DNA of 64,000 nt. Source: Phaeocystidibacter marisrubri (GTDB lineage: Bacteria > Bacteroidota > Bacteroidia > Flavobacteriales > Schleiferiaceae). The position numbers were made by a program, and so were the translations under genes. The stretch is taken from the NCBI RefSeq assembly GCF_008933165.1, contig NZ_WBVQ01000001.1:744001-808000 (forward strand). Reading direction: 5' to 3'. Positions 22,254 to 60,426 of this stretch are shown one piece after another (the first letter of the stretch is position 1; every line of letters starts with the position of its first letter). The notes beneath the pieces are model-generated. The model was not told the DNA's origin. It made no database searches and saw only the letters and a program-made list of their open reading frames with translations.

Positions 22254-22320
22254 TCGGGAGTCTTTAATCTGTAGACGGAAGACTGTCCGCGGTAGCCAAA
22301 GGCCGGAGACTACGTTAGGT
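22254..22320. repeat. Degenerate 7-nt periodic tract
   Basis: Directly after the MBOAT stop the DNA can be read as imperfect heptads (TAGACGG, AAGACTG, TAGCCAA, AGACTAC). It contains TCCGCGGTAGC (22286-22296), repeated at 22518-22528 on the other side of the minisatellite. Confidence 0.45.
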
Positions 22321-22450
22321 GGCTTTGCAGGGGTTGCACAGTTGGCATTGCAGGGGTTGCACGGATGGCGTTGCAGGGGTTGCACAGATAGCTTTGCAAG
22401 GGCTTTGCAAGGGCTGTGCAAGGGCTGACGCAGGGGTTTTACAGGGAGGT
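22321..22450. repeat. G-rich minisatellite of TTGCAGGGGTTGCAC and TTGCAAGGGCT units
   Basis: Three units of about 23 nt based on TTGCAGGGGTTGCAC (starting near 22325, 22349 and 22371) run into shorter 11-12 nt units TTGCAAGGGCT and end in decayed copies. Unit length drifts from 23 to 11 nt, so it is not a CRISPR. No coding sense on either strand: the open frame across it is just the translated repeat. Confidence 0.8.
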
Positions 22451-22473
22451 GGAAATTTAGACTCCAGAACACT

Positions 22474-22557
22474 GCCCACTGTGGACCGCAGATTGTAAAC
22501 TATCAACCGAAGCTTGATCCGCGGTAGCTATTAACAGGAAGCCAAAGACCAATGACC
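22474..22557. repeat. Degenerate 7-nt periodic tract running into a start codon
   Basis: Heptads such as GGACCGC, AGATTGT, CAACCGA, AAGCCAA, AGACCAA continue without a break to the ATG at 22558. TCCGCGGTAGC recurs at 22518-22528. Confidence 0.55.
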
Positions 22558-23013
22558 ATGAAACATCTATTGCTACTCCTCCTATGTCTCTTTTCTATCA
22601 TTGGCACAGCACAGATCTCAGATTCAACCTTCAATGATGGGGGATTGGATTTGTTCTCTAAAGCCTATCATGATGTTAGTCAGTTTGGATATAAGGAAGG
22701 AGAAGATTCGCTTTTGATTTGGATGGATCTACCAATAGTAGCAGAAGTGTTCGATTTTTTTGAATTAAAATCTCCTATGATCCTAGATAGTTCTGCTCCG
22801 ATTGAGTTCTATCTTAAAAGATATTCTACAGATTATTTTGTTCTAGAGTTTGAAGAACTATTCCATGAGGGGGATTCATGGAAGACTAAATACAATGTGT
22901 ATCAGATTGAAGAAAATAAGATCACGCTCTTGTCATCCTATGCAGAGGAAGTCACTCAACTTTCAGAGAACTCTGTTGAGATTCGAATATTGTGGCATTG
23001 GATAAGTGAGTGA
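22558..23013 (+). CDS. Small secreted protein of unknown function
   Basis: A 151-residue protein I do not recognise. It starts with a clear signal peptide (MKHLLLLLLCLFSIIGTAQ) followed by a polar, acidic mature region of about 130 residues with no cysteines and alternating hydrophobic strands, ending HWISE. A second ATG lies two codons upstream inside the periodic tract; I prefer the one at 22558. It has no operon partner: repeats lie before it and a gene-poor 490 bp after it. Its position in a variable patch suggests an accessory gene. Start is uncertain by two codons. Confidence 0.6.
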   Translation: MKHLLLLLLCLFSIIGTAQISDSTFNDGGLDLFSKAYHDVSQFGYKEGEDSLLIWMDLPIVAEVFDFFELKSPMILDSSAPIEFYLKRYSTDYFVLEFEELFHEGDSWKTKYNVYQIEENKITLLSSYAEEVTQLSENSVEIRILWHWISE

Positions 23014-23234
23014 TAAGGCTCTAGTTGCCTGTCTTTAGTATGAAGCTTATTACGCGCCTATCATTAGCCAATGGCCAACTTGTTCAAGAGGAGGTCTCTA
23101 AGTGTTTTATATTGAAGTAATAGCAGTAATTTCTATCAGTATAAAATTACAATGAACTGAATAGCTTGATGAGCGTAAATGAAAGTATCACCTTGATTTA
23201 TCTCGCTCATGAATTATTGAGTAATATCTCTTAA
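23014..23234. other. Gene-free stretch
   Basis: Stops occur in all frames at short intervals. I see no clear hairpin terminator, RNA gene or repeat here; it leads into the broken gene at 23235. Confidence 0.5.
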
Positions 23235-23501
23235 ATCGAAAGTAAGAGTAGCTCGTGGATTTGCCCTAACTCTCGTGTTATGCACTTCAATGGGGGGGAA
23301 TCGTTGGAGTAGGAATGCAAACCATGGGGGCATGGCCAAAGTGGCTAGGTGGTTCTTATGTGAGTTCGAATGGATGTGATTGTCAGTATTATCCCAATAT
23401 CGATCAGCATTGGATTACTTGCCCAGTTCGTAGCTTGTGGGGGGGTGAACGACACAGGTTCATGGTCGGAACTGCAAATTAATCCAGGAGAATGTCCTTG
23501 A
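23235..23501 (+). pseudogene. Remnant of a small Cys/Trp-rich protein with two G7 runs
   Basis: Coding-like sequence that changes frame twice. The first part ends at a run of seven G (23292-23298); the frame then shifts to one reading IVGVGMQTMGAWPKW and on through NGCDCQYYPNIDQHW; at a second G7 run (23439-23445) it shifts again into VNDTGSWSELQINPGECP and a TGA at 23499-23501. Reading straight through needs eight (or five) G at the first and six (or nine) at the second, so the shifts compensate and the total from the ATG at 23280 is a multiple of three. The product would be about 73 residues. I do not recognise it. It may be a pseudogene, a phase-variable gene or two homopolymer errors. Confidence 0.4.
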
Positions 23502-23504
23502 TGA

Positions 23505-24377
23505 ATGATGAGAATTAGATTAATGATTCTTCTACTAACGGGAATGAATCAGCTAGGCTTGTCTCAAGCTTCGCATTCCATCTATTTTGTAGATACTTCC
23601 CACGCACTTATACAGGATGTCATTGTGTTAAGTTGGAAAGGAGCAACTTGGTTGTCCGATTTAGAAGGGAAAGCATCTATTCCCGAAGATCAAATGGACG
23701 CATTGTACCTTCATTCAATGTCATTTCATGATACTTTGGTCAGTGTTCATACTGGGGATACAATTGTGTTGATAGAAGAATCTATTCTCCTTGATGAGGC
23801 TGCGGTTTATGACCGGTCGGGTTTGACCTTTCTTGATCACAGGAAATGGCGCTATCAACTTCAGCGAGAACCTGGTGAGTACTATCTTCTCGGTTACTTC
23901 GCGGAAGGGGCTGTCGTTTTAGACTCTCTAACTTTACGGGTAGAGGAGATTCTCCGCAGTACTTCGATAATTAGACTGGTAATATGGAAAGATGGTCGGT
24001 TTATTTTTGAATCTCCAGTGATTGACTTTCCAATTCAATACCAGGATAAAGTAGTTACCATCCCTATAGATTTCCACAGTATCATCAATGGTGAATTCTA
24101 CGTAGGTATACAATTTCTTGAGGTAGGAAGAGACCCCTTTGGACAAACGTCACACCTCTATCAATATCGTGGAAAAGGAGATGTTTTATCCTCTAGAAAT
24201 ACGGGTATTACGGTTGGGAGTATTCGACTTAAACCGGGGGAAAGCATGATGCTTGGCTGGTGGTATAACGGAGAACTCGAAATGAAAACCAAGCAAGCCA
24301 CCGAGGACTATAGACCCATAGCGCCTTATTTTGGAATTCATTACTTCGGTACGGGAGAGGTGAGAAGAAGTTTCTAA
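23505..24377 (+). CDS. Secreted protein of unknown function with regulatory-like N-domain
   Basis: A 290-residue exported protein starting 3 nt after the preceding remnant. The signal peptide is MRIRLMILLLTGMNQLGLSQ. Residues about 22-90 resemble a short carboxypeptidase-regulatory-like beta sandwich: HALIQDVIVLSWKGATWLSDLEGKASIP has the alternation of A/V-x-V and a following D-x-x-G. The rest is beta-rich with aromatic strands and a FGIHYFGTGE ending. No known enzyme motif is visible. The start could be the ATG at 23505 or 23508. It sits in the repeat-rich patch with no operon partners downstream on the same strand. Confidence 0.6.
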   Translation: MMRIRLMILLLTGMNQLGLSQASHSIYFVDTSHALIQDVIVLSWKGATWLSDLEGKASIPEDQMDALYLHSMSFHDTLVSVHTGDTIVLIEESILLDEAAVYDRSGLTFLDHRKWRYQLQREPGEYYLLGYFAEGAVVLDSLTLRVEEILRSTSIIRLVIWKDGRFIFESPVIDFPIQYQDKVVTIPIDFHSIINGEFYVGIQFLEVGRDPFGQTSHLYQYRGKGDVLSSRNTGITVGSIRLKPGESMMLGWWYNGELEMKTKQATEDYRPIAPYFGIHYFGTGEVRRSF

Positions 24378-24439
24378 TTGCAAGTGTGCGGAAAGTAGTG
24401 TGTAGATCCTAATATTGATGTAGACTTGATACTCAAGCT

Positions 24440-24500
24440 AGGTAGACGTTCGCTAAAAATGAGAAGCTAGAGACCAAAGATCAATCCCAATCACTCATCC
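24440..24500. repeat. 7-nt periodic tract at the 3' end of mltF
   Basis: Heptads such as AGAAGCT, AGAGACC, AAAGATC, AATCCCA, ATCACTC lead into the end of the mltF reading frame, whose stop is at 24491. The last codons of mltF may therefore derive from the tract. Confidence 0.45.
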
Positions 24501-26017
24501 AACTTTCCAACCCCAACGTTTCCCATTAGAGTAGGTCTTGTGGAAAGGTCAGCTAAATCTTCTAAAGTGCTATTGTGATCTGTAAATTCTCTGTAGTACT
24601 GGTAGATTTCTAGGATATTTCGAACGTAGTGGTAGGGTTCTGATCCACGGCAATAACCGTGGTCAACAACGGGGTCGTTGTAGTATTTAGGAAGCATTTT
24701 GTTCTTTAACATAACCTCCACATTGTCGTACCAAACATCGGGTTCTAGATTGTACTTGATGGCAAGGTTGCGGGCGTCAATAACGTGACCAAGACCAACA
24801 TTATAGGATGCAAGGATGAACTTTTTTATATCTGTAGAGTCTTCCATCTTCCGCTTCCAATAGTCTTCTAACCAAAGTAGGAATCCTGTTCCGGCTTGAA
24901 GATTTTGAGCGGGGATGTGCAATTCGCTTGGCGATACACCAAAGCGCTCTCCAGTAGCGGGCATCACTTGCATTAAGCCAGTAGCACCGAAAGGTGATTT
25001 GGCATTGGCATTGAATCGAGATTCTTGATGAATGAGAGCTGCTACTAATCGCCAGTCCCATCCCATATCTTGAGCGCGTTCCTTGATCATTTCATCGTAA
25101 GAAGAAATACGGCCATCTTGGATTTCGCGGATGCTCTCCCTAGAGTTTCGAATGGAATTGCTAAAGTATTTGTTGTAGATAATGTTGTATCGAGCACTAG
25201 TGGTTTTGGTAGCTAACCAATTGTTGATCGACATTTTAAGACTGTCGCGATCGGGTGGGATGGCCCAGGCAATGGCCTGTGTGAGGGAGATAGGCGTATT
25301 GATATCGAGGTTCGAGTAATAGGCACGGTGGAGACGAGCAATGTTTTCATCGGCTACCGTAAGGTCGATATCTCCTTCGCTAACCATTTCAATGAGTCGT
25401 GTGTAACCTACATCTGCAGGAACTTCTACAATGTCCATTTGGATGCCGTTTTCGCGAACGATATTGTAGAGTCGTTCTGCGAAAGAACTCGTTCGATTTA
25501 CGTGAATCGTTCGGCCCTCCAATTCCAAAACATGATCAACTAACCACTCTTTGCGCTTGGAGCGTGATCTGCGAGCTTCTGGTGTAATACGCTGAACCAG
25601 CACCTGACGTGTATAGTGGAGAGGTGTAGAGAATTGAACCTTGCGTAGACGTTCTCCAGTAATAGTGAGATTGCCCGCAGCTAAATCACCTTTTCCAGCC
25701 GTTAAACTGTCAAGGATATAATCAAAATTAGGAATGACATCGATTTCTAAATTCAAACCATGATCCTTACAATACCATTTTAGAATCTCATAATCGAAGC
25801 CACGCGGCTGGCCTTTCAATATGTAATAACTCGCAACATTGTTGTCCATTAAAACGTGAAGGGTACCCCGTTTCATGGTGAAAGGCATGTATGCGATGGT
25901 CGTGTCCGTAGAGTCTTGTCCAGTCTCTACAGATTTCGAGTCTGATCCACATCCAAGAAAGAGAAACGGAATGGAAAAGATCGCTAGGGTTAGGTATGGT
26001 CGGAGGCAAAATCTCAC
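24491..26017 (-). CDS. mltF: Membrane-bound lytic murein transglycosylase F
   Basis: A 508-residue lipoprotein (lipobox FLGC) of MltF architecture. Residues about 45-275 form a type-3 solute-binding-protein-like domain (VLMDNNVASYYILKGQPRGFDYEIL), and about 305-425 an SLT lytic transglycosylase domain with the catalytic glutamate in ALIHQESRFNANAKSP near residue 330, then GATGLMQVMPAT. The enzyme cuts glycan strands to 1,6-anhydro-muropeptides at the outer membrane. The start codon is GTG at 26015-26017; it opens directly onto the signal peptide RFCLRPYLTLAIFSIPFLFLG. The gene is divergent from the usp operon, 116 bp away. Confidence 0.93.
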   Translation of the reverse strand: MRFCLRPYLTLAIFSIPFLFLGCGSDSKSVETGQDSTDTTIAYMPFTMKRGTLHVLMDNNVASYYILKGQPRGFDYEILKWYCKDHGLNLEIDVIPNFDYILDSLTAGKGDLAAGNLTITGERLRKVQFSTPLHYTRQVLVQRITPEARRSRSKRKEWLVDHVLELEGRTIHVNRTSSFAERLYNIVRENGIQMDIVEVPADVGYTRLIEMVSEGDIDLTVADENIARLHRAYYSNLDINTPISLTQAIAWAIPPDRDSLKMSINNWLATKTTSARYNIIYNKYFSNSIRNSRESIREIQDGRISSYDEMIKERAQDMGWDWRLVAALIHQESRFNANAKSPFGATGLMQVMPATGERFGVSPSELHIPAQNLQAGTGFLLWLEDYWKRKMEDSTDIKKFILASYNVGLGHVIDARNLAIKYNLEPDVWYDNVEVMLKNKMLPKYYNDPVVDHGYCRGSEPYHYVRNILEIYQYYREFTDHNSTLEDLADLSTRPTLMGNVGVGKLDE

Positions 26018-26133
26018 AAAACCAATTTAGCAATACTCTTTCAAGACTGAGCGTCAGAACTTTCCGTCTTTTAAACATACCGTAGTGAATAACCCTGTGT
26101 TGGCGAGTGAAATCAAAGCTTTATCTTCACAAA

Positions 26134-27042
26134 ATGACCGAACTAGAATCAGCGAAAGAGAAGCGATTTCCGGTGACTTTTAAACGAGTTGCACTGGCTA
26201 TTGCTCTGTCTCCTCGTGCGGAAGCTCTGCTTTTTGAAGCCGTTCGTATCGCAAAGATGTTTGAAGCTCAGCTCACTTTAATCCACGTAGGTGAATTGAG
26301 CGATGCACAACGGGTGGAGTTTGACGAATTAATTACTCGGGCTGGTGGACAAGAGTTGGCCCCAGAAATTGTTGCTAAAAGTGGCAAACCCGTGGATGTA
26401 ATTCTAAATGTCTGCAAAGAGAAGAACACCGACTTATTGATTGCAGGAGCCCTTCAAAAGGAGAACCTGGTTCGGTATTTCCGTGGATCCATTGCCCGCA
26501 AGCTCAGTAGAGAAGCAAACTGTAGCATCTTGTTGATCACTAACCCCAAAAAGGAAAGTGAGATATGCTCGCGCATTCTCGTAAATGGATTATCTCATCC
26601 CAAAACACCCGATACGGTTAAAACCGCGGTATATGTAGCTGGAAAGTTCAATGCCAACGAGTTGATGATTGCCGATGAGGTACCAACGAAAGCTATTCGC
26701 GTGCGTGTGAATGACGACAAGGGATTGATCAATGCAGAACGAAAGAGGAGGGTGCTAGCCCGAGCAGAACACCGCCGATTGAACAAGGCCATCCGTGAAG
26801 TAGATGTACCCAATAATACAGAACTGACGAAGCATGTGCTATATGGTCGACCGGGATATAGCATTGGTCACTTTGCTGCTGATAAAGGGGTGGACTTGCT
26901 GGTAATGAATTCTCCCGATACACGATTGGGGTTATTTGATCGACTATTTACTCACGATATAGAATACGTATTGAGCGATTTACCGTGCGATTTATTGATT
27001 GTGCACACGACACGAGAAACTGCTAAAAAGGCTTTATCATGA
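26134..27042 (+). CDS. Universal stress protein with tandem UspA domains
   Basis: A 302-residue cytoplasmic protein made of two UspA-like halves. The first (about 15-140) begins FKRVALAIALSPRAEALLFEAVRIAKMF and ends with the nucleotide-binding-like GSIARKLSREANCSILL. The second half (about 150-300) begins ILVNGLSHPKTPDTVKTA and ends LFDRLFTHDIEYVLSDLPCDLLIV. I take the ATG at 26134 over a GTG nine codons upstream, because TATCTTCA lies 4 nt before it. Its stop overlaps the SulP gene start (ATGA at 27039), so it probably tunes or is co-expressed with that transporter. The ligand is unknown. Confidence 0.88.
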   Translation: MTELESAKEKRFPVTFKRVALAIALSPRAEALLFEAVRIAKMFEAQLTLIHVGELSDAQRVEFDELITRAGGQELAPEIVAKSGKPVDVILNVCKEKNTDLLIAGALQKENLVRYFRGSIARKLSREANCSILLITNPKKESEICSRILVNGLSHPKTPDTVKTAVYVAGKFNANELMIADEVPTKAIRVRVNDDKGLINAERKRRVLARAEHRRLNKAIREVDVPNNTELTKHVLYGRPGYSIGHFAADKGVDLLVMNSPDTRLGLFDRLFTHDIEYVLSDLPCDLLIVHTTRETAKKALS

Positions 27043-29249
27043 GTGGAGCACGTTTACAAAACTGGACTTTCGTAAAGAAGGATAGTCTACCGGCATTGCT
27101 GGTTGGACCAGTTTCTCTGATGTTTGCCATTGGGCTTTCTCTCGTTGCTCATGCGCCCATAGAGGCGGGTGTGATTGCAGTCGTTATCGGAGGATTTATG
27201 GTGTCTGCCTTTGGTGGAGCCTATGTGAATATCTCCGGTCCCGGAGTTCATTCTGCCGCTGCTTGGATGATGGGGGCGCTTATATTGGGTGGAGGAAGTT
27301 TAGATCGTGGTTACTTTATGATGCTGGCCGCAGGTGCGATTTCAGGTGCACTTATTATGGCGGTTGGATTAACCCGACAAGTGCACCGATTTGATATCAT
27401 TCCCATTGCCGTTCGACGAGGCATTGTGGCGCTTTTGGGTGTTTGGATTATTATCGGACAAATTCCCTTGCTATTTGGGGCTGAGCCCTTTTACGATTAT
27501 CACAGTATTGGAGAGATCATCTCGAAGTATCCTTATTTCTTGAATAGGGCCGTAGATGGAATTACCGATTATTGGATTTCAGGTCTAGGGCTAACCGCCT
27601 TGGTGTTCATGATTATTTATAGCAGTTATCAGAACCGTCTTATCCGCATGCTTCCCGCACCTATTTGGTTGCTCTTTGGAGGAATTGCTTTGGCGGGATA
27701 TCTACGAATTAATGAAGGAGCGGGATATGTAGCGTCCTTACACGAACAAGTTCACTTTCACGAAGGGGTCATGGAGTGGTTTCACCGTGCGAACTTCAGT
27801 ATGATTGGAACATGGAATTTTTGGAGTGTGGTTTTGGGCTTTACCCTGGTTTCGCTGAATGAATCGGTAACAAACCTCCGCGCTACAGATCGCCTCGATG
27901 TTCAACACAGAAGGAGTGATATCAATACAGAGCTTACAGCCTTGGGATTGGCCTCGGTTTTTTCATGTCTATTAGGCGGACTCAACGTTACAGCGACCAT
28001 TGCCCAAAGTTCTACCAACGTACAACTCGGTGCCACGTCACGCTTTTCCAATCTCAATAATGTATTGGTTGTCTTGTTGTTGATGTTGCTGGCTTCTCCT
28101 ATTGTTGAAGAATTATTGGTGCCCGCAGTTGCGGCAATGATGGTGTACATCGGATATCGAATGGCAGCACCTTCTCATTTGAGAAGTGTGGCTGAAATTG
28201 GATGGGAAGATTTTGTGGGATGGGCCGTGGCCTTTGGACTTGGGTGGGAATTTGGATTGCTTTACGGCATCCTTGGAGGAGTGTTAACCATGATACTCTT
28301 ACAACTGCTCACATCGGGTAAATTCGGTCATATTCTTCGATTCCTTTTTCGCCCAAACACCCTATTGTACCAAGAAGACGACAATTCCTACCTCCTTTCC
28401 ATCAAGCATTATGGGAGCTTCTTGAACCTCGGAAGAGTGCGAGAGAAAATTGATACGGTACCCTCTTCAGCAGAGATGATTGTCGATTGTTCCTTGGCCG
28501 AGTTTGTAGATCAAAATGTATTGATCCAATTGGAATACTATGAAGAGCTCTTTATGCGAAGAGGGGGACGATTTGAGGTAGTAGGGGTAGATGATCTTCC
28601 GGTAAAAGTACATCACCCATTTGCCTCTTGGATGCCATTTGGAGAGGCTCCGTCTGACACGGGACCTTTATCGAATCGTCAGGAAGCCTTGGCAGAATGG
28701 GCGGAAGAGAGCGGATATTCCTACCATCCAGGTGTTTTGTATACCGGACAACCGTATTATCGATTCCAGTACTTTAAAACAGTACGGATTGAAGGGCAGC
28801 GCAACCGACTTGTGGGAGAAGTGGCAGGATTGAATTTCATCATGGCCGATGTAGATTACTTCCAAGGAGAATTCATCGCCAGAGGTTCAACTCATTCCAC
28901 CATGATGTACATTCAGACAGAGGTGCAGTTGCCACAGTTCGTGTTAGATAGAGAGCGACTCCTCGACCGTGTTGCTTCCTTTGCGGGCTTTAGTGATATC
29001 AACTTCGATGAACATCCAACCTTTAGTTCTAAGTTTAAATTGCAAGGCAGTAATGAGAAGGCGATTCGTGAATTCTTTAGCAAAGATTTGATCGAGCTAC
29101 ACTTGGCCAATCCAGAATATCACCTTGAAGCGCGAGGCAATCAAGTATTGATATTTGAGAAAGAGAGGCTTGCAGGTGCGAATGAGATGAAAGGAATGGT
29201 TAGCTTTGCCGAAAAATTAGCCGTCTTTCTGAAGAACGCCGAAGAATGA
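27039..29249 (+). CDS. SulP-family anion transporter with STAS domain and extra C-terminal region
   Basis: A 736-residue protein. The first 430 residues form the polytopic SulP/SLC26 transport core, starting with ALLVGPVSLMFAIGLSLVAHAP and including a GGLNVTATIAQSSTNVQLGA segment. A STAS-like domain follows at about 445-535 (SLAEFVDQNVLIQLEYYEELF). Beyond that lie roughly 190 more residues that ordinary SulP proteins lack: VLYTGQPYYRFQYFKTVRIEG, then a FKLQGSNEKAIREFF region. This part looks globular and cytoplasmic, and I do not recognise it. Substrate may be bicarbonate or sulfate. It is coupled by 4-bp overlaps to a universal stress protein gene before and miaE after. Confidence 0.9.
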   Translation: MSGARLQNWTFVKKDSLPALLVGPVSLMFAIGLSLVAHAPIEAGVIAVVIGGFMVSAFGGAYVNISGPGVHSAAAWMMGALILGGGSLDRGYFMMLAAGAISGALIMAVGLTRQVHRFDIIPIAVRRGIVALLGVWIIIGQIPLLFGAEPFYDYHSIGEIISKYPYFLNRAVDGITDYWISGLGLTALVFMIIYSSYQNRLIRMLPAPIWLLFGGIALAGYLRINEGAGYVASLHEQVHFHEGVMEWFHRANFSMIGTWNFWSVVLGFTLVSLNESVTNLRATDRLDVQHRRSDINTELTALGLASVFSCLLGGLNVTATIAQSSTNVQLGATSRFSNLNNVLVVLLLMLLASPIVEELLVPAVAAMMVYIGYRMAAPSHLRSVAEIGWEDFVGWAVAFGLGWEFGLLYGILGGVLTMILLQLLTSGKFGHILRFLFRPNTLLYQEDDNSYLLSIKHYGSFLNLGRVREKIDTVPSSAEMIVDCSLAEFVDQNVLIQLEYYEELFMRRGGRFEVVGVDDLPVKVHHPFASWMPFGEAPSDTGPLSNRQEALAEWAEESGYSYHPGVLYTGQPYYRFQYFKTVRIEGQRNRLVGEVAGLNFIMADVDYFQGEFIARGSTHSTMMYIQTEVQLPQFVLDRERLLDRVASFAGFSDINFDEHPTFSSKFKLQGSNEKAIREFFSKDLIELHLANPEYHLEARGNQVLIFEKERLAGANEMKGMVSFAEKLAVFLKNAEE

Positions 29250-29833
29250 GCATGCTAGGATTAAAGTTGCCAACGGATCCACGTTGGGTGAACATCGCTG
29301 AAAAGAACATTGAAGAGATTCTCACAGATCATGCGTATTGTGAGCAAAAAGCGGCATCTACCGCCATCTCTCTCATTATTGGTTACCACGATTATCCTGA
29401 GTTGGTGGAGGCTATGGCCGCATTGGCTAGAGAGGAAATGAGCCATTTTGAGATGGTTCACCAGCAAATCGTAAAAAGAGGAATGAAGCTTGGACGTGAA
29501 CGCAGAGACGAGTACGTGCATAGCATCATGGACTTCTTTCCGAAATCGGGTGATCGAGTGATGCGATTGGTGCATCGATTGCTCATCGCAGGACTGATTG
29601 AAGCGCGTTCATGTGAGCGTTTTAAGGTGCTTTCAGAAAATATCCAAGATGCCGAATTGGCTGAATTCTACCGTCGATTGATGGTGAGTGAGGCCAATCA
29701 CTATACCATGTTCCTCAAGTTTGCCCGCGAAATTGGCGGTAGAGAGAAGGTGGATCCCCTGTGGAATGATTTGCTGGAATACGAAGCGACCGTAATGGCT
29801 CAGCTTGGTGTGAAGGAACACATCCACGGATAG
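29246..29833 (+). CDS. miaE: tRNA-(ms2io6A)-hydroxylase
   Basis: MiaE is a non-haem di-iron monooxygenase that hydroxylates the isopentenyl side chain of ms2i6A at position 37 of tRNAs. The 195-residue helical protein carries the ferritin-like metal ligands: EKNIEEILTDHAYCEQKAAS, LAREEMSHFEMVHQQI, then ARSCERFKVLSE and EANHYTMFLKFA. The first residues LGLKLPTDPRWVNIAEKNI are typical. It shares a 4-bp ATGA overlap with the SulP gene. Why a tRNA hydroxylase should be coupled to an anion transporter is unclear. Confidence 0.93.
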   Translation: MSMLGLKLPTDPRWVNIAEKNIEEILTDHAYCEQKAASTAISLIIGYHDYPELVEAMAALAREEMSHFEMVHQQIVKRGMKLGRERRDEYVHSIMDFFPKSGDRVMRLVHRLLIAGLIEARSCERFKVLSENIQDAELAEFYRRLMVSEANHYTMFLKFAREIGGREKVDPLWNDLLEYEATVMAQLGVKEHIHG

Positions 29834-29863
29834 TAGACAGTTGCTAACCCAGAATCGATTGAA

Positions 29864-30946: not shown

Positions 30947-30974
30947 CATAAGCGAAACACAATCATAACACCGA

Positions 30975-54602: not shown

Positions 54603-56011
54603 TCAGTCAGGATTTCGAGGGGTGTACCGTACTTAGCTACGAGATTATGTCCGTAACGTTGCTCGTTGTAGATTTCTGATTCAGGGGTGAAAAATATGGA
54701 CTTTCCTTCGCTTATTGCTCGTTGTATGTCTATTTCATTCGCATAATACACATATTCTACATCCGCTCTCCGAGGCTCAGAAGGATCGGGAACGACATGT
54801 GTAAAATTCTTCAGCCGCAGTTCTTCTACCTGAATAAAAGGATACCACCATCCGGTAATTACTAAGGCTGGTTGATTCAATTCATCTAGCTTTCGAACGA
54901 TCTTTTTGGTGGTGTTTATCTTGTTTTCAGCCTTTATGATACTTGCGCGAGCGGGGCCTTTAAAAAGCATCACAGCGATATCTTGATTTCCAGCAGGAAT
55001 AGTGAAGGAAGCCTGATCGGAAGGAATACCTCTCATATCATCACTGAGATCGGTTCCCAATGTGAATGCGCCCAGGACACTCATCACCACAATTGCTTTC
55101 GAGAAGCGCTGGTTGGAATATTGGAAGAGGATAAACCAACCTAGAGTTGCGAAAGGAATGAGGAACGCAGACTTTTCTGGTAAGAAAATATAGGAGCCAA
55201 GACTCATGAGGAAGGCAACGGCCACAGGTAGGGAATTTTGCTTGAATACATTGATTAAGAACATATTCCATTTTAGTCCGGCCTTAGCCCATACGATTGC
55301 AATCAATTGGAAAATGCCATAGGTACCCAAGGTGGCTTTGTAAACGACTTTTGCAATGGGTGGATAGGGAAGGTCGTAAGTTGTGAAGAAATCCCAACCA
55401 TATTCACGATAAACGGGGAAGTAGAGCACACAAGACAGAATAAAACTCAACCCTCCAAAGAAAAGAGCTTTAGAGAGTGAAGAATTTTGCCAAAGCAGTA
55501 TAAAGAGAGGAAGACCGTACATCAAAGAAGGAAGTCGACAACCTGTTGCCAATGCCGTAAAGACTGCTGCAATCATCCAGTTCTTTTGCTCGGCCGAATT
55601 CCAAGCCGCTAATAAGAAAGCCAACGTTAGCATGTATTCCATGGTTTGCCAAGCCATGATACCAACAATGGGGGTCAATAGAAAAGTAATACCAACCCAA
55701 TGTGCTTTGGTTTCTCCCATGTGTCTTTTGGCAATGCGAATCACCAATAGAAAACTCACATAGGTAGCAATGATACTAAGTAGGGAGTAGCCGATGCGGT
55801 TGACGGGATATAACCATCTAAGGAGGTATTCGTACACGGGATGCCCAGGGAAACGCGAGAGGACATAGGTATTTGAGGAATGACTCTCGTATGCTGTCAT
55901 CACAGCCGTATACGCATCTTCTTCATTTCCATAATTCGTGAATTGCCAAAGCGAGAAAAGCCAGGCAAATACCGCAAGGTGTAGAAGTATTTTGACGCGG
56001 GTAGCGTTCAT
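54599..56011 (-). CDS. Polytopic membrane protein, GT-C glycosyltransferase-like
   Basis: A 470-residue protein with about ten membrane helices, then a soluble C-terminal 130 residues. The first extracytoplasmic loop contains NYGNEEDAYTAVMTAYES and LSRFPGHPVYEYLLRWLYP, where acidic residues follow the first helix, as in GT-C enzymes that use a lipid-linked sugar donor. I cannot name a family; ArnT/PMT-like or a DUF2079-like relative would fit. It overlaps recR by 4 bp on one side and the GT2 gene by 4 bp on the other, so it is probably part of the same glycan pathway as the GT2 protein. Confidence 0.55.
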   Translation of the reverse strand: MNATRVKILLHLAVFAWLFSLWQFTNYGNEEDAYTAVMTAYESHSSNTYVLSRFPGHPVYEYLLRWLYPVNRIGYSLLSIIATYVSFLLVIRIAKRHMGETKAHWVGITFLLTPIVGIMAWQTMEYMLTLAFLLAAWNSAEQKNWMIAAVFTALATGCRLPSLMYGLPLFILLWQNSSLSKALFFGGLSFILSCVLYFPVYREYGWDFFTTYDLPYPPIAKVVYKATLGTYGIFQLIAIVWAKAGLKWNMFLINVFKQNSLPVAVAFLMSLGSYIFLPEKSAFLIPFATLGWFILFQYSNQRFSKAIVVMSVLGAFTLGTDLSDDMRGIPSDQASFTIPAGNQDIAVMLFKGPARASIIKAENKINTTKKIVRKLDELNQPALVITGWWYPFIQVEELRLKNFTHVVPDPSEPRRADVEYVYYANEIDIQRAISEGKSIFFTPESEIYNEQRYGHNLVAKYGTPLEILTE

Positions 56012-56622
56012 CGCGTTGAATTCTCGTACGGAACGCGGTGTTGAAGAGAGCGTCCCAAAGTGATTTCGTCAGCGTATTCCAGCGCATCGCCAACGGCCAG
56101 TCCTCGAGCGATGGTAGAGACCGTAAGATCAGGATTGTTCAACCGTTTGAAGATGTAGAATGTGGTAGTATCTCCTTCCATGTTGGAGCTCAGGGCAAAG
56201 ATCACCTCTTTGATTTCGCCCGATTCAATTTTGGAAACCAGCGATTGTATCGTCAGTTCACCCGGACCAATTCCCTCCATGGGAGAAATGAGTCCACCGA
56301 GAACGTGATATAATCCTTTGTATTGTCCGGTTTGCTCTATCGCCATCACATCTCGGATGTCTTCAACAACGCAAAGTGTTTCTCTATCTCTAGTCTGATC
56401 TGCACAGATCCCACAAATGTCCGAGTCACTCAAATTGTGGCAGTTTTTACAATACATTACATCATCCACCAACACCCGAATAGCGTCCGAAAGCAAGTGC
56501 ATTTCCTCCGGCGATTGTCGTAGAATATGCAGTGCCAATCTCAACGCCGTACGTCTGCCAATGCCCGGTAATTTCGCAATTTCATGAATCGCGTTCTCCA
56601 GAACTTTTGATGAGTATTGCAT
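56008..56622 (-). CDS. recR: Recombination mediator RecR
   Basis: RecR works with RecO and RecF to load RecA on gapped DNA. The 204-residue protein has a helix-hairpin-helix (KLPGIGRRTALRLALHIL), a C4 zinc finger (CKNCHNLSDSDICGIC) near residue 57, and a Toprim domain (TLCVVEDIRDVMAIEQTGQYKGLYHVLGG). Length is typical. It is the first gene of a leftward operon whose next two genes overlap it by 4 bp and resemble glycosyltransferases, an odd pairing. Just before its ATG lies a -7-like element with a 4-nt spacer, preceded by a 7-nt periodic tract. Confidence 0.97.
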   Translation of the reverse strand: MQYSSKVLENAIHEIAKLPGIGRRTALRLALHILRQSPEEMHLLSDAIRVLVDDVMYCKNCHNLSDSDICGICADQTRDRETLCVVEDIRDVMAIEQTGQYKGLYHVLGGLISPMEGIGPGELTIQSLVSKIESGEIKEVIFALSSNMEGDTTTFYIFKRLNNPDLTVSTIARGLAVGDALEYADEITLGRSLQHRVPYENSTR

Positions 56623-56626
56623 GGGG

Positions 56627-56634
56627 TAAAGTTA
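56627..56634 (-). promoter_or_regulatory. -7-like element 4 nt before recR
   Basis: On the minus strand TAACTTTA (one base from TAnnTTTG), then CCCC, then the recR ATG at 56622. A nearly identical arrangement precedes the symporter gene at 57013. Confidence 0.4.
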
Positions 56635-56662
56635 ATCTTTGGTCTTTGGTCTTGGGGCGTTG
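56635..56662. repeat. 7-nt periodic tract upstream of recR
   Basis: Two perfect TGGTCTT heptads and flanking imperfect ones. On the recR strand they read as ACCAAAG units running into the -7-like element. Confidence 0.5.
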
Positions 56663-56960
56663 TGCGGCCAATTTCTGCCTAAGGCTAGAATTTTTTATTC
56701 AAATAGGTTTAGTCAACAACATTGACCTTCGCAAACTAGACAGCATTTTTTGAATTCACGACGTATGTTCAATGCACATAGGAAGTACCTCTTCCTTTCG
56801 TAGAATCTGTCTGAGAATTTCTAATGGTGAATCTCGTTCCGCAACTGCCTCAAGGTGCTAGAAATGAACTGTTCAAAGTTATTTTCATTGTAGTGCGTTC
56901 TTCCATTCGGGATTACCTTGTTACCCATTGCCCCATATTTGAAGCGGAAGCCAGTGGCAT
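56663..56960. other. Gap with a short coding-like remnant
   Basis: No clear gene. On the minus strand 56821-56928 holds a 35-codon frame (MGNKVIPNGRTHYNEN...) ending at TAG, and beyond it, after that stop, a further run of sense codons. It may be the remains of a gene, too short to name. A weak T-rich spot lies near 56692. No RNA gene seen. Confidence 0.3.
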
Positions 56961-57012
56961 GAAGCTAGAACCATAGACGAAAGACCCAAGACCAAATCCT
57001 ATCTTTACCCCC
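56961..57012. repeat. 7-nt periodic tract with -7-like element before the symporter gene
   Basis: AGACGAA, AGACCCA and AGACCAA heptads lead into TATCTTTA (57000-57007), 5 nt before the ATG at 57013. This suggests a leaderless or near-leaderless transcript start. Confidence 0.5.
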
Positions 57013-58527
57013 ATGAACGCAAACCTTATTCTACTCCTCATACTCCTGTATTTCGCTGTATTGTTGATTATAGCGAAGGTAACGGGCAAGAACGACAGCA
57101 ATGAAACCTTCTTTACGGGGAACCGAAATTCTCCGTGGTATGTAGTCGCTTTTGGAATGATTGGGGCTTCGCTTTCAGGCGTGACGTTCATTTCAGTTCC
57201 AGGATGGGTAGCGGGTTCTCAGTTTTCCTATATGCAGATGGTGTTGGGGTACTTTGCTGGATATATGGTGATTGCGCATGTGTTACTGCCGCTGTACTAC
57301 CGATTAAACCTGACATCGATCTATTCCTATTTGGAAGAGCGGTTTGGTCGAAGTACCTATAAGACAGGAGCTTCCTTCTTCTTGTTGTCCAGAATAGTAG
57401 GAGCGAGTTTTCGACTCTTCTTGGTTGCGAATATTCTTCAATTTACAGTGTTTGAAGCGATGGGCGTACCTTTCTGGGTAACGGTGAGTGGAACCATTTC
57501 ATTGATTTGGATTTACACGTTTAGAGGAGGGATCAAAACGATTGTTTATACAGATACGCTGCAGACGCTCTTTATGCTTGGAGCAGTGGGACTAACCGTT
57601 TACTATTTGTCGGATGCGATTGTTCCAGAAGGCGTTTCACTCACACAGTACATTTCAGAATCTTCCATGAGTCGGGTGTTTTTCCTCGGACAAGAATCTG
57701 GAGAAGGGGGCTTTTGGGGATCTTTCTTTGGGGATGATTCAAAACGTCATTTTTTAAAGCAATTCCTTGGAGGTATGTTTATTACAATCTGTATGACGGG
57801 GTTGGATCAAGATATGATGCAGAAGAATCTCACCTGTAGATCTTTGAAGGATGCACAGAAGAACATGTATGGCCTCAGCACTTCCTTGATTTTTGTGAAT
57901 CTACTTTTCTTGGCACTCGGTGTTTTGCTCTATGACTACGGTTCTGCAATGGGATTGCCTGCCGCGGATGACAACTTATTTCCAACCATCGCTTTGGGCG
58001 GACATCTTCCCGTGATTGTTGGTGTGATGTTCATCATTGGACTGATTGCAGCAGCATATTCCAGTGCTGATTCAGCATTAGCCGCGCTGACTACTTCTTT
58101 CTGTGTGGATATTCTAGAAATCGATAGAAGAAAGGAAGTGACTACGCCAATAGATTCAGATTTGTTAAAGAACGATGAGCGATCACTCGTTAGAAAACGC
58201 CGCCTTGTTCATATTGGGATGTCGATAACCATTCTCATCGTTATCATCCTCTTCAAGTATACCGCTCCTCAGAATGTGATTTCTCGAATTTTTGAAGCTG
58301 CGGGATACACCTATGGCCCTTTACTTGGACTCTATTCCTTTGGCTTGTTTACATCATTAAAGGTTCGCGACAAATGGGTTCCTCTTGCAGCCATTGCAAG
58401 TCCGATTTTAACCTTCCTATTTAACATGTACTCCGAGCAACTCATCGGTTATACCGCAGGGTTTGAGCTGTTGCTAATTAATGGAGCCATCATGTTTATG
58501 TTGTTATTGGCTCTGCATAGGAGGTAG
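57013..58527 (+). CDS. Sodium:solute symporter (SSS) family protein
   Basis: A 504-residue symporter of the SSS family with about 13 membrane helices. Characteristic segments are NETFFTGNRNSPWYVVAFGMIGASLSGVTFISVPG near residue 30, SRIVGASFRLFLVANI, VYTDTLQTLFMLGAV and IGLIAAAYSSADSALAALTT near residue 340, which supplies sodium-site residues. The substrate could be a sugar, amino acid or other small solute and cannot be named. A 7-nt periodic tract and a -7-like element lie before it, and another tract separates it from marC. Confidence 0.93.
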   Translation: MNANLILLLILLYFAVLLIIAKVTGKNDSNETFFTGNRNSPWYVVAFGMIGASLSGVTFISVPGWVAGSQFSYMQMVLGYFAGYMVIAHVLLPLYYRLNLTSIYSYLEERFGRSTYKTGASFFLLSRIVGASFRLFLVANILQFTVFEAMGVPFWVTVSGTISLIWIYTFRGGIKTIVYTDTLQTLFMLGAVGLTVYYLSDAIVPEGVSLTQYISESSMSRVFFLGQESGEGGFWGSFFGDDSKRHFLKQFLGGMFITICMTGLDQDMMQKNLTCRSLKDAQKNMYGLSTSLIFVNLLFLALGVLLYDYGSAMGLPAADDNLFPTIALGGHLPVIVGVMFIIGLIAAAYSSADSALAALTTSFCVDILEIDRRKEVTTPIDSDLLKNDERSLVRKRRLVHIGMSITILIVIILFKYTAPQNVISRIFEAAGYTYGPLLGLYSFGLFTSLKVRDKWVPLAAIASPILTFLFNMYSEQLIGYTAGFELLLINGAIMFMLLLALHRR

Positions 58528-58636
58528 GATTTTTGGTTCCAGACTTCTGGCTTCTAACTTCAGACTTCGAGCGTACCTAGAACCCAGTTGGGCATCATTG
58601 CTCCAAACTCCCAACTTCTTTTCCGAACTTTGCCTC
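58528..58636. repeat. 7-nt periodic tract between the symporter and marC
   Basis: Heptads such as CAGACTT, CTGGCTT, CTAACTT, then CCAAACT, CCCAACT, CGAACTT fill the whole gap between the stop at 58527 and the ATG at 58637. The last units contain GAACTTTG, which ends 4 nt before the ATG and resembles a -7 element. A frame through the tract that adds 52 codons to marC is a translated repeat. Confidence 0.6.
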
Positions 58637-59272
58637 ATGAATGAAGCGCTATCCTTTGCCTTATTGGCTTTCACATCCTTCTTTACCCTGATCAATCCAT
58701 TGGGAACCATGCCGATTTTCATGACCATGACGGCAGAATTGGATCAATCGAATAGAACGAAGACAGCAAAGAAAGCGTCATTGGTGGCCTTTTTTACCAT
58801 CATTGCTTTTGCTTTTTCCGGACAACTGCTGTTTAGCTTTTTTGGGATTTCGGTGAACAGCTTCAAGATTGTTGGAGGGATCATCTTCTTCTTGATGGGG
58901 ATGGATATGCTTCAAGCCCGCTTGGCACGAATGAAGGTGCAAGACGATCAGGTGAAGAGCTATGTGAATGATATTTCGGTAACACCCTTGGCCATTCCCA
59001 TGATCTGTGGTCCCGGTGCTATGACCAATGCCATTGTCCTTATGGAAGGTGCGGATACATTGATGAAGAAAATTGCACTCATCACGGCCATCGCTGTAGT
59101 CATGCTTCTCACGTACATCATTCTTTACTCTTCTTCTAAGATCATCAAAATTCTAGGCGAAACCGGAAACACTGTGATGATGCGCCTGATGGGCTTGATC
59201 GTTATGGTGATTGCCGTTGAATTCTTCTTATCTGGACTTCGTCCGATTGTGGACGAGATGTTCCATGCCTAA
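58637..59272 (+). CDS. MarC-family integral membrane protein
   Basis: A 211-residue protein with six membrane helices. The opening LSFALLAFTSFFTLINPLGTMPIFMTMT, the middle GPGAMTNAIVLMEG near residue 120, and NTVMMRLMGLIVMVIAVEFFLSGL near the end are the MarC-family pattern. Members are conserved in bacteria but their function is unsettled; links to multidrug resistance were not confirmed. The start at 58637 follows the repeat tract directly. The protein could be a transporter; nothing next to it tells which. Confidence 0.87.
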   Translation: MNEALSFALLAFTSFFTLINPLGTMPIFMTMTAELDQSNRTKTAKKASLVAFFTIIAFAFSGQLLFSFFGISVNSFKIVGGIIFFLMGMDMLQARLARMKVQDDQVKSYVNDISVTPLAIPMICGPGAMTNAIVLMEGADTLMKKIALITAIAVVMLLTYIILYSSSKIIKILGETGNTVMMRLMGLIVMVIAVEFFLSGLRPIVDEMFHA

Positions 59273-59293
59273 TTCACTTGTTACCCCACTTTT

Positions 59294-59668
59294 ATGTCTT
59301 CAAAAACGAAAGTGATCTTGTTGATAGGTATTGTGCTTTTTAGTGCGTTGATGCTAAGTACGGAGCCTACTTTAGACCCTGCTTTAGAAGATTGCTCGGT
59401 GGTAAGCGGCGTTTTAGATTCTACGGAAGTCCCAGATAAAATCAATTTGTCATGGGTTTATCTTGAAGAAGATTCTCACCGCTATCTTATTCGAGAGGGG
59501 ATTCACACGTCAGACGCTGCCCATATTCTTGCGGAAAGTGAGGGAAAGAACTTAGAGATAGGGACAATCAATCACTTTTCACTCCTCGATCCAAATGGAA
59601 CGATTCAATATGTCGCTTGGATTGTTCTTGAAGGGGACACGGTTGTTGGGGGGATGGCTGGTGACTGA
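59294..59668 (+). CDS. Small membrane-anchored or secreted protein, unknown
   Basis: A 124-residue protein with one N-terminal hydrophobic segment (VILLIGIVLFSALML). The rest is polar and acidic, with two cysteines absent but for one at residue 33 (LEDCSVVSG). No family is recognised. It starts 21 nt after marC and may share its transcript. The final codons enter a 7-nt periodic tract, so the C-terminus GGMAGD may be repeat-derived. Confidence 0.55.
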   Translation: MSSKTKVILLIGIVLFSALMLSTEPTLDPALEDCSVVSGVLDSTEVPDKINLSWVYLEEDSHRYLIREGIHTSDAAHILAESEGKNLEIGTINHFSLLDPNGTIQYVAWIVLEGDTVVGGMAGD

Positions 59669-59731
59669 TGGGTGATGGGTGACTGATGACGGGTGACTGA
59701 TGACTGATGTTTGATGTTAGATGACTGATGA
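59662..59731. repeat. Clear 7-nt tandem tract between two convergent stops
   Basis: Ten consecutive heptads of the form GACTGAT, GGGTGAT, GGGTGAC, TGATGAC, TGATGTT. The stop of the small gene (59666-59668) lies inside it and the DinB-like stop (59732-59734) comes right after. Confidence 0.75.
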
Positions 59732-60193
59732 TTAATCCCAAATAAACGGTCGCTCTACGTTTAGCTGACGAAGATAGGACTGAAACTGTCCCGCATGTAC
59801 GGCTTCGTGATAGGCAGTACGCAAGATGTATTCCGCCATGTGTTTTGGTTTGGCTCTTCCGGGATGGTGAACAGAAACAGCCTCGAGATCTTCAGTGCTC
59901 AATCCACGGATGGTGGAGAGAAATGCCTTGCGATAAGGCTCAGCAAAGTCTAATTCGGTTTGGAGATCAAGGATGGGTTTTCCTTTCCATGGTGCGGAGT
60001 AATTGGACATATCCTCGTGACGAATAATCATGTTCCAACCGTAATCAGCTTCGAGCACATGTCGGATGAGCTCTCCTGCAGTCATGGCTGTTTCATCGGG
60101 TTTCCAATTCATCTTTTCAGTGGGTAATGCACTCCATAGTAGAATGCTTCTTCTTCGGGTTTCGCTGAGGTGGGTGAGTAGGAGGTTGTGCAT
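59732..60193 (-). CDS. DinB-family protein
   Basis: A 153-residue four-helix-bundle protein of the DinB/YfiT-like group. The expected metal-binding histidines are in ELIRHVLEADYGWN (near 47) and AYHEAVHAGQFQSYLRQL (near 127-131). Members include thiol transferases and metal-dependent hydrolases; no substrate can be inferred. I use the ATG at 60193; the frame continues upstream to a GTG at 60313, but the added 40 residues are only the translated 9-nt repeat (LKPIKPLKP...). Confidence 0.78.
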   Translation of the reverse strand: MHNLLLTHLSETRRRSILLWSALPTEKMNWKPDETAMTAGELIRHVLEADYGWNMIIRHEDMSNYSAPWKGKPILDLQTELDFAEPYRKAFLSTIRGLSTEDLEAVSVHHPGRAKPKHMAEYILRTAYHEAVHAGQFQSYLRQLNVERPFIWD

Positions 60194-60200
60194 GGGGAGT

Positions 60201-60300
60201 GGGTTTGATGGGGTGATGGGTTTGATGGGTTTGATGGGTTTAAGGGGTTTGATGGGTTTAAGGAGTTTTAGTGGTTGGGTGACGGATGACTGTTGATGGA
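60201..60300. repeat. 9-nt tandem repeat GGGTTTGAT and variants
   Basis: About seven units of GGGTTTGAT or GGGTTTAAG sit immediately before the DinB-like start and decay into 7-nt units at the far end. An annotation that takes the upstream GTG would include this as protein. Confidence 0.8.
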
Positions 60301-60302
60301 TG

Positions 60303-60351
60303 AGAGGTGACACCTCTACCGCGCGAATCCTTTCGCGTGGGTAAGGTAGAG
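60303..60351. repeat. Nested inverted-repeat element
   Basis: AGAGGTG/CACCTCT around one base (60303-60317), then CTCTACC (60314-60320) pairing with GGTAGAG (60345-60351), enclosing CGCGAA/TTCGCG (60322-60327 / 60332-60337). The DNA could form alternative stem-loops. It resembles a small palindromic mobile or REP-like element, but no other copy was seen. Confidence 0.5.
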
Positions 60352-60352
60352 T

Positions 60353-60426
60353 GTTTTGGGTTTGAGGAGTTTTAGGGGTTGGATGACGGATGGTGGTAGT
60401 TGGATGACTGGGGCTTAGGTGGAGTA
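60353..60426. repeat. Decayed 7-nt periodic tract
   Basis: Imperfect heptads (GATGACG, GATGGTG, GTAGTTG, GATGACT) continue the tract of the DinB region up to the pseudogene at 60427. Confidence 0.4.

Follow-up and report, generated by a model that had tools for sequence, protein, structure and literature searches.

Degenerate period-7 tracts in the intergenic DNA of Phaeocystidibacter marisrubri, a variant of published heptamer repeats

The intergenic DNA of P. marisrubri carries degenerate tandem tracts with a step of 7 nt. These tracts, which an earlier note had picked out by eye, are largely real and in part as first described. They are biased towards intergenic DNA, neighbouring units in the long tracts are more alike than distant ones, and both the units and the leading period are lineage-specific and differ between sister species. 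We class the tracts as a variant of the already published intergenic heptamer repeats. Probably they are neutral tandem tracts that arose by local duplication (replication slippage) and were later worn by mutation.

Period-7 tracts in the window

The window is the whole stretch of 64,000 nucleotides that was analysed; its features are listed in Table 1. The lag-7 identity of eight sites named in the earlier note was compared with 2000 dinucleotide shuffles per site. Seven of the eight exceeded the shuffles: 22254-22320 (0.42 versus 0.25 shuffled, p=0.0035), 22474-22557 (0.43 versus 0.25, p=0.0005), 24440-24500 (0.41 versus 0.27, p=0.023), 56635-56662 (0.76 versus 0.35, p=0.0005), 56961-57012 (0.51 versus 0.28, p=0.001), 58528-58636 (0.42 versus 0.26, p=0.001) and 59662-59731 (0.76 versus 0.30, p=0.0005). 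The eighth, 60353-60426, showed no significant excess (0.43 versus 0.34, p=0.07). Because the sites were chosen by eye these p values carry selection, of which the genome-sample counts given below are free. With identities ranging from 0.41 to 0.76 the window tracts are degenerate, and their units are AAAGACC, CAGACTT, TGACTGA and GGRTGAC.

The gaps were thought to be occupied completely, which holds for 59669-59731 only (98% period-7); the share in the five other tested gaps was 28, 23, 19, 43 and 13%. That tracts enter the last codons of genes was seen at 59652-59668 and, if the weak tract is taken as 24440-24500, for about 10 nt at 24491-24500. One tract also reaches a start codon: its end at 22557 overlaps the called start at 22552, and a second ATG follows at 22558. 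The tracts are not the single family that had been proposed, since GGRTGAC often occurs together with a palindrome and 9-nt repeats, neither of which accompanies AAAGACC or CAGACTT in the window. An Rfam search of the window at gathering thresholds gave no match.

Table 1. Tandem tracts and associated elements in the window.
Feature	Position	Strand	Remarks
Period-7 tract (GTAGACG GAAGACT ...) adjoining MBOAT stop codon	22254..22297	+	score 26.0; lag-7 test
Tandem repeats of 23 and 11 nt within that gap, not of period 7	22320..22436	+	Tandem Repeats Finder rows 22320-22402, 22391-22436
Period-7 tract ending AAAGACCAATGACC over called start 22552	22478..22557	+	segment 22478-22516 scores 17.6
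Weak period-7 tract at 3' end of SLT gene (24491-26017, minus)	24440..24500	+	score only 12.2 over 24458-24483
AAAGACC tract directly upstream of recR start (ORF 56008-56622, minus)	56636..56665	-	
AAAGACC tract directly upstream of symporter start (57013)	56954..56996	+	
CAGACTT tract from symporter stop codon toward MarC start	58528..58574	+	
GGGTGAC/TGACTGA tract across the end of ORF 59294-59668 (final codons and stop), to DinB-like ORF	59652..59731	+	
9-nt repeats (GGGTTTGAT / GGGTTTAAG)	60192..60276	+	Tandem Repeats Finder
GGRTGAC-type period-7 tract adjoining palindrome	60270..60310	+	
Palindromic element CGCGAAAGGATTCGCGCGGTA	60317..60337	-	one of 56 copies (at most 3 mismatches)
GGRTGAC-type period-7 tract on the palindrome's other flank	60377..60410	+	

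Intergenic excess in the genome sample

A sample of 864 kb of the genome, window included, contained 400 intergenic regions of at least 40 nt, in which tracts scoring at least 30 were counted as strong. The lag-7 excess over intergenic DNA that the earlier note implied was present in this sample: 10 of the 400 regions reached the threshold at period 7, against means of 0.0 and 0.3 in two shuffle sets. Period 9 gave 9 such regions and the harmonic period 14 gave 5, and each of the remaining periods from 4 to 16 gave 0 to 2 of the 400. When coding DNA was scored at period 7 in chunks of 150 nt, 3 of 1200 chunks reached 16 and 0 of 1200 reached 20. The choice of places by eye and the non-significant site 60353-60426 could point to chance or to pattern seeking, but the genome-sample counts exceed those of shuffles, other periods and coding DNA; chance is thus ruled out as an explanation, and we give it a negligible probability.

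Unit drift and origin of the tracts

Drift of the unit was analysed in 19 tracts of 84-260 nt, of which 4 came from this genome, 2 each from the genomes G001 and G005, and 11 from other Bacteroidota; at least 2 of the 19 include a palindrome copy, and the set holds none of the window tracts, which are too short for the test. Lag-7 identity was higher than the identity at lags 42-56 in 19/19 long tracts, with a mean difference of 0.205 to which phase slips contribute and for which lag 7 had also served in tract finding. In a column-shuffled control the mean was -0.002 and 0 of 500 shuffles reached the observed drift. Lag 28, which the tract finder does not use, likewise exceeded lags 42-56 in 18/19 long tracts (mean 0.082). 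Given the drift in all 19 long tracts, one fixed consensus, as in a protein-binding array, is not the general rule, although the columns are uneven (see below).

We suggest that weakly constrained intergenic DNA provides the setting in which neutral short-period tandem repeats can form. Slippage, or equally local copying, would duplicate a single unit or a few neighbouring ones, each 7 nt long (or 8 or 9), and point mutation with further local duplication would shift the unit along the tract, the step thereby outliving the unit. The GGRTGAC unit was probably amplified genome-wide in this lineage as well, in many cases as part of compound blocks that also contain 9-nt repeats and the palindromic element. 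The short tracts of the window presumably share the mode of origin of the long ones.

Three observations count against such a neutral decay. Column conservation was uneven, with a nominal p<0.01 in 10 of 41 tracts, and among 113 GGRTGAC-like units G2 was conserved in 93% and G5 in 97%; simple decay does not predict uneven columns, which copying of variants can cause. Differences between adjacent units showed a weak transition bias (Ts/Tv 0.65 versus 0.51 by chance). Finally, exact runs of at least three heptads are few (only 4 in the intergenic DNA of 1.264 Mb), so slippage need not be active today. Slippage as the copying mechanism, the neutrality of the tracts and the manner in which the compound blocks spread are our reading of the sequence patterns. 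Since searches for exact repeats would miss most worn tracts, such tracts may be undercounted in Bacteroidota.

Units and step length in related genomes

Compared were 1.264 Mb of this genome, 1.0 Mb of the sister species G001 and 0.17 Mb of the same-genus genome G002, with one genome per species. This genome has tract families of 7 and 9 nt, G001 mainly of 8 nt. Octad tracts scoring at least 25 numbered 26 in the 1.0 Mb of G001 and 3 in the 1.264 Mb analysed here, and exact runs of at least three octads 10 and 0, respectively. Matches to GGRTGACGGRTGAC (at most 1 mismatch) numbered 144 in this genome, against 0 for its backward control, and 3 and 5 in the two same-genus genomes.

A further set consisted of 80 named loci of other Bacteroidota (570 kb), picked for holding the palindrome. 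Period-7 scores of at least 30 were found in 27 of their 342 intergenic regions versus 0.7 in shuffles, and period 8 gave 18 versus 1.7. The period-7 units of these loci appear by eye to differ from those of this genome.

Conceivably, worn tracts with a step of 7, 8 or 9 nt might all be made by a single polymerase or repair activity whose preferred step is tuned to the lineage and which copies DNA at opened junctions and next to palindromes; we consider this a long shot. If it were true, each species would fill new gaps between genes with a step and unit of its own. On the preferred reading, local duplication followed by wear, the tracts may be taken as a natural record of how intergenic DNA forms, in which the unit drifts under a retained step of 7, 8 or 9 nt. 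As two species of one genus differ in their leading step, the old puzzle of the bacterial preference for 7 nt could be tested by setting the step found in related genomes against their polymerases and repair genes. GC skew was positive in 43/43 pieces of C1 and negative in 20/20 pieces of C2 (measured up to 880 kb); the heptad clusters among the matches listed, counted by eye, showed no clear replication-strand preference.

The palindrome and compound blocks

The palindrome CGCGAAAGGATTCGCGCGGTA occurs in this genome in 56 copies at up to 3 mismatches, against 0 for the backward control. At up to 2 mismatches G001 has 0 copies and G002 has 3, and the element is present in 6 of 40 genomes including this one. 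The exact 21-mer was found in 81 stretches of named genomes, and 77 of the 80 listed titles bear Bacteroidota names. Folded as DNA, 60303-60365 gave -13.7 kcal/mol (z -4.6). The copy in the window is thus a dispersed short palindrome, as REP elements are, and CGCGCGGTAG is seen in most copies shown, a putative counterpart, on one side or the other, of the GTAG next to the stem of published REPs. The site 60353-60426 is near the 9-nt repeats and the palindrome.

These data raise the possibility that a compound mobile element of palindrome, heptads and nonamers, similar to REP/BIME, carries the GGRTGAC tracts around the genome, as opposed to their birth in place. The many copies of the palindrome here and its rarity in relatives fit such an element. 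Defining a heptad island as two or more overlapping unit pairs (n=20), we found the palindrome within 200 nt of 11 and within 1 kb of 13 islands, and by eye the order heptads, AACCCC, nonamers, palindrome is repeated at several loci. Nevertheless 9 of the 20 islands lack a palindrome within 200 nt, only 3 of 65 single unit pairs have one, and no copy is nearer than 1.7 kb to the scored tracts of the window at 22254, 56954 and 58528. Judged by eye, most palindrome copies in other genomes lack adjoining heptads, and in G001 the exact local palindrome lies within 200 nt of only 3 of 21 octad tracts, a lower bound because variants are uncounted. A profile search of this genome with PF01797 (Y1_Tnp, RAYT-type) gave 0 matches, while a control search gave matches in 5 of 14 known genomes; we therefore set aside the reading of palindromes driven by a RAYT. 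We regard spread by a compound element as possible for the GGRTGAC tracts, though doubtful.

Gene order at tract junctions

In the window the tracts suggest scars, or even agents, of rearrangement, formed at insertion or inversion breakpoints or bringing them about. The block of MarC and a hypothetical gene (58637-59668) has the opposite orientation in G001 and G002 and is flanked here by tracts on both sides; the junction at the 58528-58574 tract is unlike both relatives. The 2.2 kb stretch 22254-24490 is missing there in G002, where the flanking gene ends are 10 nt apart, and tracts stand at both of its ends, the 24440-24500 tract at the right-hand one. A role in rearrangement was also suggested by MacGregor 2015 (PMC4679880). 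In this genome 9 of the 146 changed junctions contained tracts scoring at least 20, as did 1 of the 206 conserved ones (Fisher p=0.002), and with three genomes pooled the counts were 14/322 and 5/466 (p=0.0035); an earlier smaller count against G001 alone had given 9/137 and 1/199.

However, the gaps at changed junctions are longer. Once gap length was taken into account, the 19 tract gaps included 14 changed ones versus 13.0 expected (p=0.41), which leaves this attractive explanation unsupported. In gaps above 350 nt the direction was even opposite (tracts in 5/55 changed and 5/12 conserved), whereas at 60-350 nt 9 tract gaps were changed and 0 conserved, a cut that was chosen after the data were seen. 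G001 alone gave 4/143 changed versus 3/203 conserved (p=0.31) and G002 alone 1/33 versus 1/57. Ku was not found in this genome (it was found in 2 of the 40 genomes searched, a set that includes this one), a scar of end joining by Ku/LigD is therefore unlikely, and we discarded that candidate. Overall, a causal link between tracts and rearrangement seems improbable.

Tracts upstream of start codons

The earlier note had set replication slippage filler beside a functional spacer or regulator. Filler is the better backed of the two, by the drift, by the lack of strong tracts in the coding sample and by units and periods that vary with the species; a regulatory role is weakly backed. On the regulatory view, AAAGACC-type tracts in sense orientation would govern the spacing to the following gene's promoter, or binding close to it. 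The whole genome yielded 7 matches to the AAAGACC pair; four are sense and end about 20 nt or less from a start codon (starts 22558, recR 56622, symporter 57013 and one at L004), but the other 3 lack this placement. Among 1068 called starts, 11 are preceded within 60 nt by two AAAGACC units (up to 3 mismatches) in sense orientation and 1 by such units in antisense (shuffles 4.4 and 2.4), but the backward control gave 6 and 3, and at up to 4 mismatches the counts of 46 and 24 are nearly equalled by the control (42 and 18). In 39 relatives the AAAGACC pair was found 103 times versus 100 for the backward control (hand count). As a promoter element AAAGACC is accordingly a weak candidate. Most of the 33 tracts scoring at least 20 have other units, tract gaps occur in all gene orientations (8 ++, 7 --, 5 -+, 4 +-), the leading units of the sister species differ, and two tracts folded as single-stranded DNA did no better than shuffles. 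A promoter-proximal spacer is for these reasons unlikely.

Relation to published repeats

Cyanobacteria possess STRR heptanucleotide repeats, degenerate heptads between genes such as CCCCAGT and CCCCAAT. These and the tracts described here are both degenerate intergenic heptads of different unit and phylum, and we set them apart by description.

The earlier note's remark that it knew of no named equivalent needs qualifying, as there are publications on intergenic heptamer repeats in Cyanobacteria, Xanthomonas, Beggiatoaceae and five Bacteroidetes (PMC4679880, PMC4692102). According to these papers, heptads form the most frequent class of long simple repeats in the majority of genomes, and polymerase slippage has already been put forward to explain them (PMC4679880, PMC4692102). 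The G-rich heptamers of Xanthomonas and Nostoc, GGGAATC and GGGGA(C/T)T, are dispersed with a strong non-coding bias; they vary in length and sequence among relatives, slippage has been proposed, and their function is given as unknown (PMC4692102). In dispersal, non-coding bias and variability they resemble the tracts here. They differ in that their units form G-quadruplexes (PMC4692102), whereas 59662-59731 gave no stem-loop as single-stranded DNA in a fold model limited to stem-loops. Most of them also keep the same neighbouring genes in two related organisms (PMC4692102), whereas 9 of 10 classified tract gaps here have changed neighbours.

Like the palindrome here, REP/GTAG palindromes are short, mostly intergenic, clustered and present in tens of copies; they are followed by GTAG, as the palindrome here may be too (PMC3733652, PMC6006769). 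The part of the GTAG survey used here lists these repeats for Proteobacteria, Cyanobacteria, Chloroflexi and PVC; Bacteroidetes appear in it for CGTC repeats alone (PMC3733652). A Bacteroidetes class of RAYT-type transposases with atypical adjacent structures is known (PMC6006769), yet this genome yielded no Y1_Tnp.

Our literature search on heptanucleotide or heptamer repeats in Bacteroidetes or Flavobacterium found only PMC4679880. There, MacGregor 2015 describes intergenic TAACTGA direct repeats, often proximal to start codons, in five Bacteroidetes and mentions regions with other heptamers (PMC4679880). The tracts here are likewise direct 7-nt repeats, intergenic and often near start codons. 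In contrast to the one fixed heptamer searched in that study (PMC4679880), we found many strongly degenerate units, accompanied by 9-nt families in the same gaps and by 8-nt families in the sister species. TAACTGA is not among the units of the window, where TGACTGA is one base off. Doubled TGACTGA (at most 1 mismatch) occurred in 87 of 198 genomes of the phylum, mostly in 1-3 copies, with the backward control at about 51 by hand count.

Period-7 tracts in the intergenic DNA

The earlier note had described, by eye, degenerate 7-nt tracts filling the intergenic gaps at eight places of the window. At seven of these the identity of letters 7 nt apart (lag 7) exceeded that of dinucleotide-shuffled controls. 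The eighth, 60353-60426, showed no significant lag-7 excess; around it are short runs of heptads, 9-nt repeats and a palindrome. Almost complete filling held for the gap 59669-59731 (98% period-7 DNA) and failed for five other tested gaps (13-43%).

The analysis was extended to 864 kb of the P. marisrubri assembly (3.35 Mb, 22 contigs), comprising the window and 40 stretches of 20 kb, with gap borders that are approximate because genes were called with a simple codon-usage script. Pooled intergenic identity reached 0.272 at lag 7 and 0.271 at each of lags 9, 14 and 21, compared with 0.263-0.266 at lags 3-6 and 8. At a tract-finder score of at least 30, period-7 tracts were present in 10 of 400 gaps, compared with 0.0 in shuffles and 0.3 in a repeat run; period-9 tracts occurred in 9 gaps, and each period outside 7, 9 and 14 in 0-2 gaps. 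The claim had beforehand been staked on a lag-7 excess in intergenic DNA; given the excess of tracts over shuffles it therefore survives in this sample. The period-7 tracts are real, mostly of an ordinary kind and unusual in degree.

Drift of the units along long tracts

For the analysis of drift we used 19 tracts of 84-260 nt, four from P. marisrubri (none from the window), two each from the sister species G001 and a further genome, G005, and 11 from other loci, mostly Bacteroidota. Identity at lag 7 was higher than at lags 42-56 in all 19, with a mean drop of 0.205 that is partly fed by indel phase slips and by palindromes within some of the tracts. A control that permuted the letters of each column, leaving consensus and phase intact, matched this drop in none of 500 trials, and at lag 28, outside the tract finder's criteria, identity still exceeded that at lags 42-56 in 18 tracts. 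Adjacent units therefore resemble one another beyond any shared consensus, the pattern that local duplication and later mutation would leave. The best explanation of the tracts, a probable one, is neutral duplication of adjacent units with later decay of the copies by mutation. Uneven column conservation (nominal p<0.01 in 10 of 41 tracts) and the small transition bias between adjacent units count against simple decay.

Units and palindromic element

Most strong tracts of the P. marisrubri genome share the unit GGRTGAC. Its doubled form (at most one mismatch) gave 144 matches in the whole genome and none for the reversed motif. It was matched in 50 of 88 genomes of the family, P. marisrubri included; since each of the others had at most 7 matches, the amplification is a property of the P. 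marisrubri lineage.

The palindrome CGCGAAAGGATTCGCGCGGTA (Table) has 56 copies in this genome at up to three mismatches. Its 20-letter core, at up to two mismatches, was found 54 times in P. marisrubri, 0 times in G001 and 3 times in the second sister species, G002. In a collection of named genomes the exact 21-mer turned up in 81 stretches, with Bacteroidota names on 77 of 80 among the matches listed; Bacteroidota with exact copies include Flavobacterium, Draconibacterium, Carboxylicivirga and Marinifilum. The palindrome resembles REP elements, apparently with GTAG adjoining its stem; a search of the P. marisrubri genome for a Y1_Tnp gene found none. In a 1.264 Mb sample a palindrome copy lay within 200 nt of 11 of 20 heptad islands (two or more overlapping unit pairs) and of 3 of 65 single unit pairs. 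By eye, heptads, 9-nt repeats and palindrome recur in this order. We treat the palindrome as a companion that does not cause all tracts. On contig C2 of P. marisrubri (62215-62984), eight copies at a near-constant spacing of about 108 nt form a tandem array of palindrome and spacer.

Coordinates of palindrome, reading frames and repeat tracts
Feature	Genome	Position	Strand	Remarks
Palindrome CGCGAAAGGATTCGCGCGGTA	P. marisrubri, window	60317-60337	minus	other loci: L056-L085; L086-L165
Two ORFs without Pfam matches, in stretch 22254-24490	P. marisrubri, window	22552-23013; 23505-24377		period-7 tracts at both ends
Degenerate 8-nt tracts, examples	G001	C1:786735-786852; C1:608346-608446		
Gaps with 23-24-nt repeats	P. 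marisrubri	22320-22436 (window); C1 ~822106-822395 (outside window)		

Other units and steps in relatives

Both sister species carry tracts, with mostly different units. The leading period in G001 is 8 (TCTAACCC, GTCCATAA), a different leading step from that of its congener P. marisrubri: 26 octad tracts scoring at least 25 were found in 1.0 Mb of G001 versus 3 in 1.264 Mb of P. marisrubri. G001 also has heptads such as CAGGCTT (8 tracts at the same score). Some of its octad tracts adjoin its own palindrome, CCCGAATCGGCTCCGCC.

In 80 loci chosen for their copy of the palindrome, from genomes with names that are mostly those of Bacteroidota, period 7 came first (27 of 342 gaps at a score of at least 30; shuffles 0.7) and period 8 second (18 of 342; shuffles 1.7); the units vary by eye. 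At this score the period-7 excess was smaller in the AT-rich genome G027 (8 versus 2.7 in shuffles), and G005 had 2 tracts versus 0.

In the parts of the literature covered here, TAACTGA heptads are described between genes of Beggiatoaceae, Cyanobacteria and five Bacteroidetes, with further heptads close to them in some of these organisms (MacGregor 2015, PMC4679880). G-rich heptads are described for Xanthomonas and Nostoc, and slippage is reported there as an idea on how heptads in general arise (PMC4692102). A prokaryotic survey derives some abundant bacterial satellite families from heptamers and hexamers (PMC6749651). Neither degenerate tracts with drifting units nor a change of the leading step within one genus was met in these parts of the work on bacterial heptamer repeats. 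Two features deserve attention: the compound blocks with the palindrome, and the different leading steps of sister species.

Gene order

The block of MarC and a hypothetical gene (58637-59668) is inverted relative to G001 and G002 and has tracts on both flanks; as judged by eye, the symporter and ORF 59294-59668 diverge from their relatives at the C-terminus, where the tracts set in. G002 lacks the stretch 22254-24490 at the matching place; there the ends of the MBOAT and SLT genes are separated by 10 nt. Tracts scoring at least 20 lay at 9 of 146 junctions with changed gene neighbours versus 1 of 206 conserved junctions in P. marisrubri (p=0.002), and at 14 of 322 versus 5 of 466 with three genomes pooled. 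Gaps are longer at changed than at conserved junctions, and with gap length controlled the excess vanished in the sampled genomes (14 observed versus 13.0 expected, p=0.41). Under post hoc length cuts, which carry no test value, all nine tract gaps of 60-350 nt were changed, and above 350 nt a tract was present in 5 of 55 gaps at changed junctions and in 5 of 12 at conserved ones.

Gene starts and minor observations

Four of the seven AAAGACC-pair matches in the P. marisrubri genome lead in sense orientation to start codons. In a count upstream of 1068 called starts, the AAAGACC pair at up to three mismatches gave 11 sense and 1 antisense matches (shuffles 4.4 and 2.4; reversed motif 6 and 3); at up to four, the 46 and 24 matches were near the 42 and 18 of the reversed motif. 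A possible regulatory role of this motif at starts is a lead and not evidence.

TAnnTTT-like words stand closely 5' of ATG at 56623-56640, 56998-57012 and 58620-58636 (TAACTTTACCCC-ATG, TATCTTTACCCCC-ATG and GAACTTTGCCTC-ATG). A Bacteroidota -7 box at leaderless genes would look like this. The window also encodes a T9SS sorting domain (PF18962), a domain linked to Bacteroidota. Two gaps hold repeats of 23-24 nt that look alike by eye; their cores resemble TTGCAGGGG and CTGCGCAGCCC.
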